From: a virus
Length of the DNA: 36,520 bases
Reading direction: 5' to 3' (one strand)
IMG/VR virus record: IMGVR_UViG_3300008266_000206
Coordinates: 1-36,520 of that record
Of the stretch, positions 20,431 through 25,813 are shown in pieces. Below the pieces are notes generated by a model. The model was not told the DNA's origin. It did no database searches and saw only the letters and a program-made list of their open reading frames with translations. Each line of letters begins with the position of its first letter. Within the stretch, counting starts at the first letter, position 1. Made by a program: the position numbers and the translations under genes.

Positions 20431-20544
20431 ATGCCCAAAAACGTAACTAAAAAGAACGAAAAAAAATTAATTAAGTTTCTAAATATCGAAAATGGCGTTA
20501 ACCTTAAACCAGGTAAAAAGGCGGCTAGAAAGTCTGGCAAATAG
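20431..20544 (+). CDS. Possible small basic protein overlapping the next gene
   Basis: ATG 20431 opens a 37-residue lysine-rich frame (MPKNVTKKNEKKLIK...) ending at TAG 20542-20544, overlapping the next gene by 53 bases in another frame. The first 61 bases are otherwise an unexplained gap between two coupled genes, which slightly favours translation. Unknown function. Confidence 0.35.
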   Translation: MPKNVTKKNEKKLIKFLNIENGVNLKPGKKAARKSGK

Positions 20545-21226
20545 CCATAAACAAATACGTACGGTTCGTTTTGTTGACTACGACGAAGCGCTAGACGATA
20601 GCGACGTAACGTACCCGCTATGCGTTATAGAACTGCAGGTAGATAATTTAATTAGCCTGCGCGAACGCCTAACATACTTTAGTTTTAAGGTCTATTTATT
20701 CGATCTTATAAACTTAAAAAAAGAAGCGCTGGGTAACGAATTCGAAGTTAAAAGCGATCTATCCAGCATAGCCCAGGATATAGTAGCTATGGTAAATTTC
20801 CACGAATACCAGGCCGACTGGCAGGTAGACGAAGAATATAACTTTAAGATAGCAAACTACCAGCTACAAGACCTGGCCGGCGGCGTACAGTTCGATCTAC
20901 GTATAGGCGTACGTTTCGACGCGAACCGCTGCCAGGTACCAGCCGAAGACGTAGAATTCGAAACCGATATAAGCCAAGACATGAAAATAATATCTAACTT
21001 CGTACACGACGTAACAGAAGAAGCCAGTACGTTAACGCTATCGGCTATGTATAACCGCGACATACTGCTATTTTACCTGGGCGACAAATTACTAAAACCG
21101 GTAACAGACCCAGTAGCAATATTAACACCGGACGAATACCGGTACACGCCCGCCGATAGTTTTTTCGAATTCGGTACCGACATACAACCAGAACAAGTAA
21201 TACAAATTTTAAACCGTTCTTTATGA
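20492..21226 (+). CDS. Neck/tail-terminator-like protein
   Basis: A 244-residue protein of mixed alpha/beta composition. N-terminal helix and strands (LNQVKRRLESLANSHKQIRTV, YPLCVIELQV, FSFKVYLFDLI, SIAQDIVAMV) have the arrangement of tail-terminator/tail-completion proteins. It lies between the connector and the fibre gene. Its TGA overlaps the fibre ATG. Role inferred from order and composition. Confidence 0.55.
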   Translation: MALTLNQVKRRLESLANSHKQIRTVRFVDYDEALDDSDVTYPLCVIELQVDNLISLRERLTYFSFKVYLFDLINLKKEALGNEFEVKSDLSSIAQDIVAMVNFHEYQADWQVDEEYNFKIANYQLQDLAGGVQFDLRIGVRFDANRCQVPAEDVEFETDISQDMKIISNFVHDVTEEASTLTLSAMYNRDILLFYLGDKLLKPVTDPVAILTPDEYRYTPADSFFEFGTDIQPEQVIQILNRSL

Positions 21227-23850
21227 AATTTTTAAAACTGGCCGTACTTTTTTTACTGGCGGCGCTTATACTAACTTTAACAACTTCGGCCCAGGTAGGT
21301 AACGATACTACGAAGTACTTTACTTCTAAAGACTATGGCTGGCTATGGCAGCGCGGCAAATTTCGCCAGCTGGTAGCGCCCAGCGATACCGTATACAATA
21401 AACAGGGCGTAGCCGTTAAAGGCGGTACCTGGTACTTCGGTAATGGTACTAGCTGGGCCAGCATGGGTTCGGGCGGCGGCGGTTCTACCGATACTACCAG
21501 TCTAAGTAGCCGCATAGACGCCAGGGTAAAGTATACCGATACTTCGGGTATGTTATCGGCATACCAGACAGCGTTAAACGCCAGGATAACGACAGCTACG
21601 GCCGCAGCTACGTACATACCGTTTACTGGGCTGGGCGGTTCGTCTTTATTCGGTAATACTACGGCTGGCGGCAATTTAACGCTACAAAGCACTTCGAACG
21701 CTACGAAGGGTAAAATACTATTCGGTACGTCGGCGTACGATCAACTTAATAACAGATTAGGTATAGGTCTGGCGAACCCTGCGAATACGTTAGACGTAGT
21801 GGGTACTGGCGTATTTACGGGTAGTCTGGCGTTCGGTAGCCAGCTGGTAGCGCAGCCGGCCAGCGGTAACTGGACGGACGGCTTTTTTAACATTGACGCT
21901 ATCGGCGGCATGGCGCAGATAGGCGACTATACAAATAACTGGAATAACACATACATAACGGTAGACGATCAAAACGACTATAGTATAAATTTATCAGCGC
22001 CAAACGGCGCTATAAACGTATACGGCCCTATATCGGCGCAGGGTTTATATTTAACTGGGCAGCTAGACGCGGACGGCCAAAATAATCTAAACGGCCTTAC
22101 TGACATATATGGCAACTTAGACCTACGTAGCACTACTACCGCATACGGTACATTTAACTTTAACGCTTTAACAGCGTCTTTACCTTTAAAGCTAGACGCG
22201 TCTAAAAACGCTACGGCGGCCGCTATAAATTTAAGCGGTAGCGAAGTAACCGGAAACCTGCCAGTATCGAAACTAAACAGCGGTACCGGCGCTAGCGGTA
22301 CTACGTTCTGGCGCGGCGACGGTACCTGGTCTACGCCTGCCGGTTCTTCTGGCTGGGCGTTAACGGGTAATAGTATAACTGCAGGTACCGATAAAATAGG
22401 TACTACAAATAACGCGGCACTACCTTTTATAACTAATAGTGTGGAAACTATGCGCCTGGATAGCCTGGGCGCCAGGTTATTTTTAAAAAATGGCGTAGAC
22501 CCGTTACTATCTTTAAAGCAAAGTTTTTCTAATCAAGAGTACCAGTTAAGGCTGGGCGTAGGTACGGGTCTGGCTAGTCAAAAATATAACGTATACGACG
22601 CTACGGCAGGTAAGATAATGTATTCGGCCGCCGCTAGCTACGGCGCAGGCGGCGCCCAGTTCGTAGTAGGTAGTAGTGCGCCGTACGCGGCCAGTACGCT
22701 TTATGTAGGTAATGGCGGTAGCGGCGGTACCAATATAGACGCCCAGCCAGATAGTACCGTAGGCGACGAAGCAAATATCGAAATAATGAAAAGCGACTAC
22801 AGTAGCGGCGAAGGGCTGGCGTTACGCGGCTGGGGTAACGTAGGCGTTATAGGCGGCGGTACCGTTATGGGCTATACTAAACGTAACCTGGGCGTACTAG
22901 ATTTTACAAACGAATACAATTTAATACGCGTATCTAATAACCGGTCGCTACGTATCGGTACGAATAATACCGAATACATGGTACTGGATAGCATAGGCCG
23001 GCTAAATTTAAACCAGTTAACCGCGTCGCGCCTGGTAGGTACCGACGCCAGTAAAAACCTAGCTACGTTAACGGCTACCACTACCGAAGCGAACTACCTA
23101 TCTGGCGTAACGTCTGAACTGCAGCCCCAGCTAGACGGTAAAAGCGGGCTAGGTTTTAAGCGTTTTAAATTACACTACGGTAACGGTAACGGTACCGGCG
23201 TAACTACGTTAGGCTGGACAGTTAGCGCCGTAGGTACTGCGACTACGTTAAACGTAGCGACTACGAACCGGTATACGCAGGCCGCAGGTATTGAATACCT
23301 GGTAACTACACCGGCTACGAATGCTATAGCCGGTTTTCGTGAAACGGCGCAACAGAACTTTTTTGGTAATAGCGCAGGTAACGGCGGTTTTACTTTTGTA
23401 TGCCGGTTCGGCCCAGCTACCGGCGTAGCGACTACTACTACCCGCTGCTTTACCGGTATGACCGCGTCGGGTGGCGTACCTACAGACGTAGAACCTTCTA
23501 CGCTAGTTAACGCCGTCGGCGCTGGCTGGGATGCCGCAGACGCTAATATACAATTTATTTGCTGGAACGGCGCCGGCGGCGCTACTAAAATAGACCTGGG
23601 TATACCCGTACCTACGGTAGACCGTACCAGCTTATACGAACTTAAAATGGTAGTACAACCTAACAGTAATACCGTTACGTATACATTTACCGATCTACAA
23701 GCCGGCGGCGCCAGCGTTACCGGTTCTACGTCTACCAGTACGCCTAGCACAAATATACTACTATCGGCTAGGGGCTGGATAAGCGCCGGCGGTACGTCTT
23801 CGGTAATAGGGTACGGGTTAAAGCATGTATACGTAGAATCTAATTTTTAA
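21223..23850 (+). CDS. Receptor-binding tail fibre with N-terminal signal peptide
   Basis: An 875-residue fibre-like protein. Residues 1-23 are a textbook Sec signal peptide: MKFLK, a long hydrophobic core (LAVLFLLAALILTL) and a TSA|Q cleavage site. The start is firm because it overlaps the previous stop (ATGA). The shaft includes NNRLGIGLANPANTLDV (near 177), the GIG...P...LDV repeat of Bacteroidota fibre/surface proteins, and VTGNLPVSKL...TFWRGDGTW (near 345-370). The C-terminal 230 residues are a Gly/Thr-rich beta domain, probably receptor- or sugar-binding. A cleavable export signal on a virion protein is odd and suggests capture of a host surface gene or an exported form. Confidence 0.8.
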   Translation: MKFLKLAVLFLLAALILTLTTSAQVGNDTTKYFTSKDYGWLWQRGKFRQLVAPSDTVYNKQGVAVKGGTWYFGNGTSWASMGSGGGGSTDTTSLSSRIDARVKYTDTSGMLSAYQTALNARITTATAAATYIPFTGLGGSSLFGNTTAGGNLTLQSTSNATKGKILFGTSAYDQLNNRLGIGLANPANTLDVVGTGVFTGSLAFGSQLVAQPASGNWTDGFFNIDAIGGMAQIGDYTNNWNNTYITVDDQNDYSINLSAPNGAINVYGPISAQGLYLTGQLDADGQNNLNGLTDIYGNLDLRSTTTAYGTFNFNALTASLPLKLDASKNATAAAINLSGSEVTGNLPVSKLNSGTGASGTTFWRGDGTWSTPAGSSGWALTGNSITAGTDKIGTTNNAALPFITNSVETMRLDSLGARLFLKNGVDPLLSLKQSFSNQEYQLRLGVGTGLASQKYNVYDATAGKIMYSAAASYGAGGAQFVVGSSAPYAASTLYVGNGGSGGTNIDAQPDSTVGDEANIEIMKSDYSSGEGLALRGWGNVGVIGGGTVMGYTKRNLGVLDFTNEYNLIRVSNNRSLRIGTNNTEYMVLDSIGRLNLNQLTASRLVGTDASKNLATLTATTTEANYLSGVTSELQPQLDGKSGLGFKRFKLHYGNGNGTGVTTLGWTVSAVGTATTLNVATTNRYTQAAGIEYLVTTPATNAIAGFRETAQQNFFGNSAGNGGFTFVCRFGPATGVATTTTRCFTGMTASGGVPTDVEPSTLVNAVGAGWDAADANIQFICWNGAGGATKIDLGIPVPTVDRTSLYELKMVVQPNSNTVTYTFTDLQAGGASVTGSTSTSTPSTNILLSARGWISAGGTSSVIGYGLKHVYVESNF

Positions 23851-23884: not shown

Positions 23885-24424
23885 ATGGGCACCACTACAA
23901 CTTCTTTACTTTTCGCTAAAATTACCTGGGCGTTTACGTTACTATGGTTCGACTTTTTTATGCAGCCGTCGGTATCTTTAATGGGCGTTATGATAGGCAC
24001 CGTAGCGCTAGACCTGGCTACCGGCATAATGAAAGCTAAATTTTTAAAACAAGATCGTACCAGTACGGGCCTTCGTCGTACCGTCGTTAAAATTTCACAA
24101 TACGCGGTACCCGTTCTGGTATTCTTCGTCGCTAGTAGATCAATACCCGAATATAAAGTACGGCTAGAACAAGCTGCGGGCTTTTTAATGATGTTTATAG
24201 TATACATAGAATGTACTAGCATTTTCGAAAACCTATACGCTATAGATAGTAAAACGCCTATAAGTAAATACATTTATAAACCTGCCCTGGTTATACTTAA
24301 ATTCGGTATCGAAAATAACCCAGTAGCCCAGGCGGCCGAAAAGATGAATAAAAAAACTACGGTAACGACGACCGACGAAACCAGCCACAAAAAGAAAACC
24401 GTAACCGAAAATATAAAACCGTAA
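23885..24424 (+). CDS. Holin (phage holin 4 family)
   Basis: A 179-residue membrane protein with about four hydrophobic segments (around 9-27, 31-54, 72-88 and 100-120). The second contains GVMIGTVALDLATGIMKAK, the conserved motif of toxin-secretion/phage lysis holins (PF05105). The C-terminus is a charged soluble tail. It forms membrane lesions that release the endolysin encoded two genes downstream. First gene of the lysis cassette. Confidence 0.85.
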   Translation: MGTTTTSLLFAKITWAFTLLWFDFFMQPSVSLMGVMIGTVALDLATGIMKAKFLKQDRTSTGLRRTVVKISQYAVPVLVFFVASRSIPEYKVRLEQAAGFLMMFIVYIECTSIFENLYAIDSKTPISKYIYKPALVILKFGIENNPVAQAAEKMNKKTTVTTTDETSHKKKTVTENIKP

Positions 24425-24427
24425 AAC

Positions 24428-25036
24428 ATGCGCTACCTATTAATATTTTTACTGGCCCTGGGCGCCGTACTGCAAAGCTGCAGCGTTACGAAGAAGTCTA
24501 AATACAGCGAAAAAACTACTGTAGATAGTACCGGTACGACCAGGCTAGATAGTTCGAATACGAAGACGCTAGATACTACCAGCGTTAAAAAAGATAACAC
24601 CGTAACGACGATCGAAACCGAAGGCGACTATACGAAGAAAACTACTATAGAATTCGATACCGCCGAACCGACGAAGCCATACGTAAAAGACCCGCCGCCG
24701 CTAGATACCGGATATATAAAGGTATGGCCTACCGACGCGGCCGACTACTTCGCCAAAAAACAAAGGGTTAAAAAAATAACGATAGAAGAACGCGGCCAGG
24801 TAAAGACCAAAGAAGTAAAGCAGGCCGCTACGTACGATAGTACCAGCAAACATACCAGCGACGATACCCAGCTAAATAAAGAACAAAATACGGCTGTAAA
24901 GAAAACGACGTCGGTAACGATCAAAGACAAAAAGACTACTAGCTACTGGGCCTGGCTATGGCTGCTACTGCTAATACCTGCCTACCTGGTATACCGGAAC
25001 TGGCCCAAAATAAAAATATTTTTAAAACTAGTATAG
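24428..25036 (+). CDS. Lipoprotein with C-terminal membrane anchor; u-spanin candidate
   Basis: A 202-residue protein with a lipoprotein signal (LLALGAVLQSC, lipidated Cys at 18) and a single C-terminal transmembrane helix (about 172-190, WAWLWLLLLIPAYLVY) followed by a basic tail. Between them is a Thr/Lys/Asp-rich, periplasm-type spacer. An outer-membrane lipid anchor plus an inner-membrane anchor in one protein is the plan of unimolecular spanins such as T1 gp11, which fuse the two membranes in the last step of lysis. Located between holin and endolysin, which supports this. Confidence 0.75.
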   Translation: MRYLLIFLLALGAVLQSCSVTKKSKYSEKTTVDSTGTTRLDSSNTKTLDTTSVKKDNTVTTIETEGDYTKKTTIEFDTAEPTKPYVKDPPPLDTGYIKVWPTDAADYFAKKQRVKKITIEERGQVKTKEVKQAATYDSTSKHTSDDTQLNKEQNTAVKKTTSVTIKDKKTTSYWAWLWLLLLIPAYLVYRNWPKIKIFLKLV

Positions 25037-25037
25037 T

Positions 25038-25445
25038 ATGGCCGATTTTAAAAAAGCGTACGCCCAGACCGCGAAAAACGAAGGCGGGTATAGTAACGAC
25101 CCAGTAGACGCCGGCGGCGAAACCTGGCGCGGTATAGCCCGTAAAAAGAACCCAGGCTGGAAGGGCTGGGCCATAGTTGATAAGTACCGGCACCAGGTAG
25201 AATTCAAACGATTTTTAGAACAAGACGTAGAACTACAACTACGCGTACTGGCGTTCTATAAAGCCGAATTCTGGGATAAGATAAAGGGCGACAAAATAGA
25301 CAGCCAGGACGTAGCGAATTCCATATACGACAGCGCCGTAAATATGGGCGTAACTGCAGCGGTAAAACTGGCGCAGCGATCTTTAAACATTAACGAAACC
25401 GGTATAGTTTCTTCGGCTATGCTGGATAAACTAAATAACAAATGA
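25038..25445 (+). CDS. Endolysin, GH108 N-acetylmuramidase
   Basis: A 135-residue lysozyme-like enzyme. The motif NEGGYSNDPVDAGGETWRGI (14-33) is the GH108 active site, with Glu15 catalytic. It is followed by WKGW, and the C-terminal part (YDSAVNMGVTAAVKLAQRSL...) is the peptidoglycan-binding helix bundle usual for this family. No signal peptide, so it needs the holin. It begins one base after the preceding stop. Its last bases overlap the next ATG. Confidence 0.92.
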   Translation: MADFKKAYAQTAKNEGGYSNDPVDAGGETWRGIARKKNPGWKGWAIVDKYRHQVEFKRFLEQDVELQLRVLAFYKAEFWDKIKGDKIDSQDVANSIYDSAVNMGVTAAVKLAQRSLNINETGIVSSAMLDKLNNK

Positions 25446-25813
25446 AAAGAGTAGACGCCATAATAGTTATTTGTATGGTCGGTTTAATTTTAACCGGTAT
25501 CGGTACGCATAACTTTTTAAGAACTAAACACCCAGAAACGATAGTAGTACGCGTAGATACGTTTTACCTTACTAACGATAAACCCGTAATAGTAGAACAG
25601 AAACTACCGGTACCGAATACCAGATACGATAGCCTGGTACTAGAACTTAATAAAAATATTTACGCCTTCGCAAAGCAGCGCGACAGTTTAAAAACTAAAC
25701 TTTTTCTGGCCCAGTACAAAATAGAAAAAGTAAAATATTACCTATCTATAGTAGACCGTAAACCGTCGCAAATAAAATATTTAAAGGGCTGGGTACGCCG
25801 CGCAGTAGAATAA
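25442..25813 (+). CDS. Membrane-anchored coiled-coil protein, possible second spanin (Rz-like)
   Basis: A 123-residue protein with an N-terminal transmembrane segment (6-24, AIIVICMVGLILTGIGT) and a helical, charged C-terminal part (ELNKNIYAFAKQRDSLKTKLFLAQYKIEKV). This is the layout of inner-membrane Rz-type spanins. It overlaps the endolysin stop (AATGA) and is the last + strand gene before the terminator. It may pair with the lipoprotein at 24428 or be redundant with it. Confidence 0.6.
   Translation: MKRVDAIIVICMVGLILTGIGTHNFLRTKHPETIVVRVDTFYLTNDKPVIVEQKLPVPNTRYDSLVLELNKNIYAFAKQRDSLKTKLFLAQYKIEKVKYYLSIVDRKPSQIKYLKGWVRRAVE

Follow-up and report, generated by a model that had tools for sequence, protein, structure and literature searches.

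A Sec-type signal peptide on the tail fibre of a Bacteroidota phage and its possible bearing on virion assembly

The 36,520-bp virus record analysed here (the window) encodes on its + strand an 875-aa protein (21223..23850) which, judging from its sequence, is probably a receptor-binding tail fibre and which starts with a Sec signal peptide (SP) followed by glutamine, an arrangement kept in nearly all of its complete relatives. The reading that we favour, with slightly more confidence than doubt, is that this fibre would be exported through Sec, cleaved by signal peptidase I, folded in the periplasm and attached to virions at lysis. It draws on the signal peptide and its agreement with the Q-rule, the fibre-type body, the position in the structural operon and the modules shared with fibres devoid of signal peptide; its support in virions comes by analogy, from MS/MS records on other families of SP-bearing tail proteins. 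The textbook assembly of tailed phages is wholly cytoplasmic.

The phage infects Bacteroidota. Its late region lies on the + strand, as is typical of tailed phages, and contains in order the terminase, the tail and tape-measure genes, the capsid, the portal, a DUF6712 protein, a 244-aa protein, the fibre and a holin (the names terminase, capsid and tape measure derive from the respective sequences and from gene order). The fibre gene is thus located between the structural and the lysis genes, as expected of a receptor-binding protein; no other gene of fibre type was recognised at that position in the window. As the initial annotation had pointed out, its start is joined to the preceding gene by a 4-base overlap: the fibre ATG shares ATGA with the TGA of the upstream head/tail-module gene (g20492; 20492..21226, + strand), which encodes the 244-aa protein. 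A g20492 homologue is found directly upstream of the fibre in 41 of 57 SP-fibre loci, and 18 of these 41 have the same overlap. In the SP-less fibre clade, the g20492 homologue of locus L109 (14716-15720) and of other SP-less relatives is a tandem duplication of about 334 aa.

The fibre is followed by a lysis cassette (23885..25813, + strand; Pfam and PHROG hits) made up of the holin, a lipobox/TM protein, a GH108 endolysin and a protein with TM and PG-binding regions. The second of these (202 aa, 24428-25036) combines the lipobox MRYLLIFLLALGAVLQS↓C with a TM segment at its C-terminus and looks like a single-protein spanin. The endolysin is apparently split (25038-25813) into the GH108 gene and an overlapping gene that encodes an N-terminal TM segment and a PG_binding_3 domain.

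The N-terminus of the fibre reads MKFLKLAVLFLLAALILTLTTSA↓QVGNDTTKYF. In the direct translation, residues 1-23 (21223..21291, + strand) correspond to a textbook type I signal peptide, with K2 and K5 in the n-region, a 9-residue hydrophobic core (mean Kyte-Doolittle value of 3.4) and the cleavage motif TSA↓Q. Cleavage at this site would leave Gln24 (21292..21294, + strand), an invariant column in alignment A1, as the new N-terminus, likely in the form of pyroglutamate. In Bacteroidetes, the substrates of signal peptidase I have Gln at +1, which is cyclised to pyroglutamate (the Q-rule; PMC5837995, PMC10653852). With its basic n-region, hydrophobic core, A/G/S-type site and Gln at +1, the fibre is a predicted signal peptidase I substrate. 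Signal peptides were called with a rule-based script, not with SignalP, and this script prefers Gln if several sites fit; the Gln at the fibre cleavage site is plain by eye, independently of that preference. The same scan detected no lipobox Cys in the fibre, the site being of type I, and the fibre is the sole ORF of the window in which a signal peptide precedes Gln; two other ORFs scored, one because of its lipobox (24428) and the other as a weak match with a TTG start (30490).

The classical, cleavable-looking Sec signal described in the initial annotation is therefore confirmed, makes export the natural reading and had, if anything, been understated, as the signal peptide with Gln at +1 (SP+Q) extends to the whole family. 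A scan with the first 130 residues of the fibre found 24 viral loci, and in all 24 the protein opens with an SP-like segment whose last residue is A, G or S, Gln coming next. A wider scan with conserved N-domain motifs reached some 80 loci, and nearly all those with the 5' end present have SP+Q, the exceptions being L241/L246, where Q is preceded by FSGFT, and L226/L243, which have no Q and an n-region that is long. The family comprises 69 distinct N-termini scored as SP-bearing, with signal peptides of 16-27 residues and a basic n-region; 68 of them have A, G or S at -1 and Gln at +1. Since SP+Q was found in 36 of the 1342 other distinct ORFs of at least 150 aa from the same loci (many of these 36 being fibre-like themselves), its occurrence on the fibre family, as read from these sequences, is not attributable to chance. 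Where the mature N-domains of two sequences share more than 60% identity (236 pairs), the mature domains have a median identity of 79% and the signal peptides one of 50%; in the most extreme pair (L086 and L197) these values are 95% and 22%. The signal peptide changes in its letters but keeps its charge, hydrophobicity and cleavage site, as a functional signal peptide would. A tblastn search with the fibre N-terminus against isolated phages returned no homologue. In L130 (15458-20990), three genes in a row start with a signal peptide and then Gln.

The signal peptide is followed by a mature N-terminal domain (21292..21558, + strand; DTTKYF..DYGW..R..P.DT.NK.G.A...W in alignments A1-A3) with a linker, GGGGSTDTTSLSSRIDARVKYTDT. 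This domain, the putative docking part on the virion, is shared with L130, L139, L170 and L178, where it occupies the same gene position. A pair of cysteines (CGxP...D[S/T]C) is distributed in an all-or-none manner within it: 25 sequences have both, 44 have neither and none has a single one, even close relatives differing in this respect (L219 has both, L222 neither). Such a pattern is suggestive of a disulfide, which would fit extracytoplasmic folding; the window's own N-domain has no Cys pair, and this counts against the favoured reading. Alignment A2 was too divergent to serve as a search query, and a structure model of the N-domain was unusable (pLDDT 58).

The rest of the protein resembles ordinary phage fibres. 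The body has a fibre repeat (..GTGASGTTFWRGDGTW) common to hundreds of viral contigs, and the repeat motif at residues 316-376 (22168..22350, + strand) is 70% identical to phage fibre L003. The repeats of the form GIG...P...LDV noted in the initial annotation come down to a single copy (residues 179-192), and this motif is found in 13 of 94 SP-bearing and 5 of 71 SP-less fibre-like ORFs. The C-terminal domain (23140..23847, + strand) is predicted by AlphaFold and Foldseek to adopt a ConA/legume-lectin-like fold and may be a glycan-binding head; the model is of modest confidence (pLDDT 65, pTM 0.70), and its Foldseek match to legume lectins (E 3e-7, TM 0.54) has to be read accordingly. Searches of Pfam, PHROG and NCBIfam gave no family match for a receptor-binding or chaperone domain in the window fibre itself; its relative L178, which matches it in N-domain and gene position, contains Peptidase_S74, a chaperone for the trimerisation of fibres.

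The C-terminal module of the window is present both in SP-bearing fibres (L002, L130) and in SP-less ones (L004, L107, Flavobacterium phage 11b). Similarly, body modules of SP-fibres are 62-73% identical over 237-284 aa to those of SP-less fibres (L216/L115, 73% over 284 aa; L182/L127, 69% over 237 aa; L244/L115, 68% over 277 aa), and in the lineage of the window phage it is these SP-less fibres that occupy the fibre position. Fibres of that lineage (L107, L113, L115, L117, L128, L129, L177) share the gene position and body modules up to 73% identical but differ in their N-terminus, MANKKINQLD.., which is not a signal peptide. In the capsid (MCP) tree, the window adjoins an SP-less clade, and L130, L139, L170 and L178 are placed elsewhere. 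The recurrence of the body modules in SP-less fibres of the window lineage suggests that the signal peptide and N-domain form a swappable front end on ordinary fibres. SP-fibres are common, not universal: isolates with similar body modules and no signal peptide include Bradyrhizobium phage ppBjS10J-1, Caudoviricetes MW202524, Flavobacterium phage 11b and Cellulophaga phi17:2, and the tail fibre of Cellulophaga phi18:1 likewise has none.

The evidence from virions comes from cultured Cellulophaga phages. Eleven adjacent tail-module proteins with signal peptides are encoded by phi10:1 (gp091-094), phi19:1 (gp101-104) and phi18:3 (gp085-087); 10 of the 11 have Gln at +1, and all 11 are labelled 'structural protein' on the basis of experimental MS/MS proteomics (record notes of GenBank KC821618, KC821607 and KC821620). 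The initial annotation had assumed that virion proteins stay in the cytoplasm, a premise that does not seem to hold for these three phages. Their proteins resemble the window fibre in the signal peptide followed by Gln, in being large and adjacent and in belonging to the distal tail module; they differ from it in their N-domains, and the record notes do not mention signal peptides. Since the two groups have only short body modules in common (59 aa at 49% between phi18:3 gp086 and L247), these records are evidence for the class rather than for the window gene. It also counts against the favoured reading that purified virions can carry co-purified exported proteins. Together with the recurrence of the signal on the fibres of about 70 distinct relatives, the records suggest that some of the virion is completed beyond the cytoplasm. 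One of the SP-bearing proteins has a homologue of its body without signal peptide in phi17:2. Nearly identical (97%) SP-bearing pectate-lyase-like tail proteins are encoded by phi19:3 (L254, 33899-42086) and phi10:1 (L257, 3101-6392), and their presence in two phage families that infect Cellulophaga baltica suggests an exchange of host-range modules.

According to the favoured reading, the fibre would be expressed late along with the structural genes and would pass into the Sec translocon of the host. Cleavage after Ala23 by signal peptidase I would expose Gln24, which a host cyclase would convert to pyroglutamate. The fibre would then fold and trimerise in the periplasm. No TM segment was found in the window's mature fibre, only 2 marginal ones appeared among the 79 SP proteins scanned, and the SP-fibres scanned gave no Pfam or NCBIfam match to a type IX secretion tail. 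Lacking a clear TM segment, lipobox or type IX tail, the protein likely goes through a soluble periplasmic stage, and a soluble periplasmic protein until lysis is its likely default state. Once holin, endolysin and spanin opened the envelope, the fibres would come into contact with virions built in the cytoplasm and would dock on them by way of the conserved mature N-domain; the particle would thus be completed outside the cytoplasm. T4 fibres and P22 tailspikes attach in vitro to finished particles, which makes such a late attachment possible. Two candidate correlates were rejected. Proteins of about 100 aa encoded directly after the fibre (L099, L139, L170, L144, L117, L128) gain or lose a signal peptide between phages; all 10 copies with a signal peptide accompany SP-fibres, yet in 7 phages with an SP-fibre the partner lacks one. 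An extra C-terminal domain of g20492 that seemed to track SP-fibres was seen in the MCP lineage, and the pattern is broken by L193. This lack of strict agreement with SP-fibres, in both cases, counts against the favoured reading.

Several other scenarios may explain an exported fibre. The main rival, to which we grant a small but appreciable probability, is that the protein is not, or not mainly, a part of the virion but a decoy or receptor mask which saturates the receptors on the dying cell, on debris and on neighbours, and which may thereby block superinfection or the re-adsorption of progeny. A signal peptide combined with a lectin-like head would suit an exported glycan binder, and in L144, L150 and L151 a short SP-less fibre gene precedes a distinct gene that does have a signal peptide. 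Nevertheless, the SP-fibres tested have no type IX tail, lipobox or TM segment and should stay in the periplasm until lysis, the window contains no second recognised fibre-type gene at the fibre position, and the records of the Cellulophaga phages list SP-bearing tail proteins among the virion proteins. The suggestion in the initial annotation that the fibre is exported to coat or block the cell surface consequently stands as regards export, which is possible, and is weakened as regards the surface, as no signal to reach or hold it was found. Its other suggestion, a membrane or assembly tag, comes nearest to the view favoured here. Taken as an uncleaved hydrophobic N-terminus that stays inside the virion for membrane penetration or as a trimer anchor, and is no real signal peptide, it would agree with the usual cytoplasmic assembly of tailed-phage virion proteins; we regard it as improbable, as it gives no reason for the conserved Gln after an A/G/S site (68 of 69), which argues for cleavage, and the basic n-region and variable letters and length speak against it as well.

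The two remaining scenarios fit poorly. A recent capture from a secreted host protein, of which the signal peptide would be a passive remnant devoid of function in the phage, seems very unlikely. Bacteroidota do secrete proteins with similar GIG..P..LDV motifs; yet the signal peptide has been kept over about 70 distinct phage genes despite the turnover of its letters, and the body modules belong to phage fibres. The N-domain has 157 relatives in viral contigs, and a scan of the genome collection with a single 8-residue pattern, hence not exhaustive, found 1, on a contig of a Sediminibacterium MAG in which the fibre is followed by genes of holin and lysis type. The descent from a host surface protein proposed in the initial annotation thus finds little support. 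Least probable of all is an adhesin or surface protein for lysogenic conversion, which a prophage would express and which would have nothing to do with virions. Prophages of Porphyromonas gingivalis do encode Q-rule proteins of unknown function (PMC10367356), but no integrase was recognised among the translated ORFs of the window, and a gene whose start overlaps a structural gene and which precedes the lysis genes should be expressed late.

Virion proteins with cleavable Sec signals are known from filamentous phages, whose coat proteins pIII and pVIII differ from the case proposed here in that assembly takes place at the inner membrane and the particle leaves by extrusion, without lysis; these are not tailed phages. 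Llp of phage T5 is a phage-encoded envelope protein with a signal sequence and, unlike the proposed exported fibre, is not known to be a virion component. The same distinction applies to lambda Lom, a phage-encoded envelope protein with a signal sequence whose gene lies between the tail spike and tail fibre genes (PMC12309495). A close precedent is the description by Matrishin et al. (2023) of Q-rule SP proteins in P. gingivalis phages (PMC10367356): these are also phage-encoded in Bacteroidota phages and have a Sec signal peptide and then Gln, but they were thought to modify the host outer membrane and were not recognised as fibres or virion parts. A search of largely open-access literature found no report linking signal peptides with tail fibres of Bacteroidota phages.

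A widespread family of Sec-exported fibres would give tailed phages a two-compartment assembly route, in which one virion part, disulfide-bonded and capped with pyroglutamate by the host, would be produced in a different compartment and added to the rest at lysis. This would bear on how fibres avoid the cell's own glycans and how progeny escape debris. It also matters for the annotation of receptor-binding proteins, where a signal peptide could be taken as grounds for calling a gene 'host' or 'cell surface'. The cultured Cellulophaga phages make the idea of Sec-exported fibres directly testable. As a wider proposition, which we put just short of evenly balanced, export of receptor-binding fibres or spikes through Sec, with completion of the virions in the periplasm or at lysis, would be found in many tailed phages that infect Bacteroidota and perhaps in those of other phyla. 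The body motif was the sole criterion for collecting 73 fibre ORFs, a sample that is a lead and not a survey; 19 of them scored as SP-bearing, roughly 16 convincingly by eye, and several do not look like Bacteroidota, some having a proteobacterial look. SP-bearing fibre-type proteins were observed in phages that look unlike those of Bacteroidota (L018, L023, L027, L045, L073 and L015).
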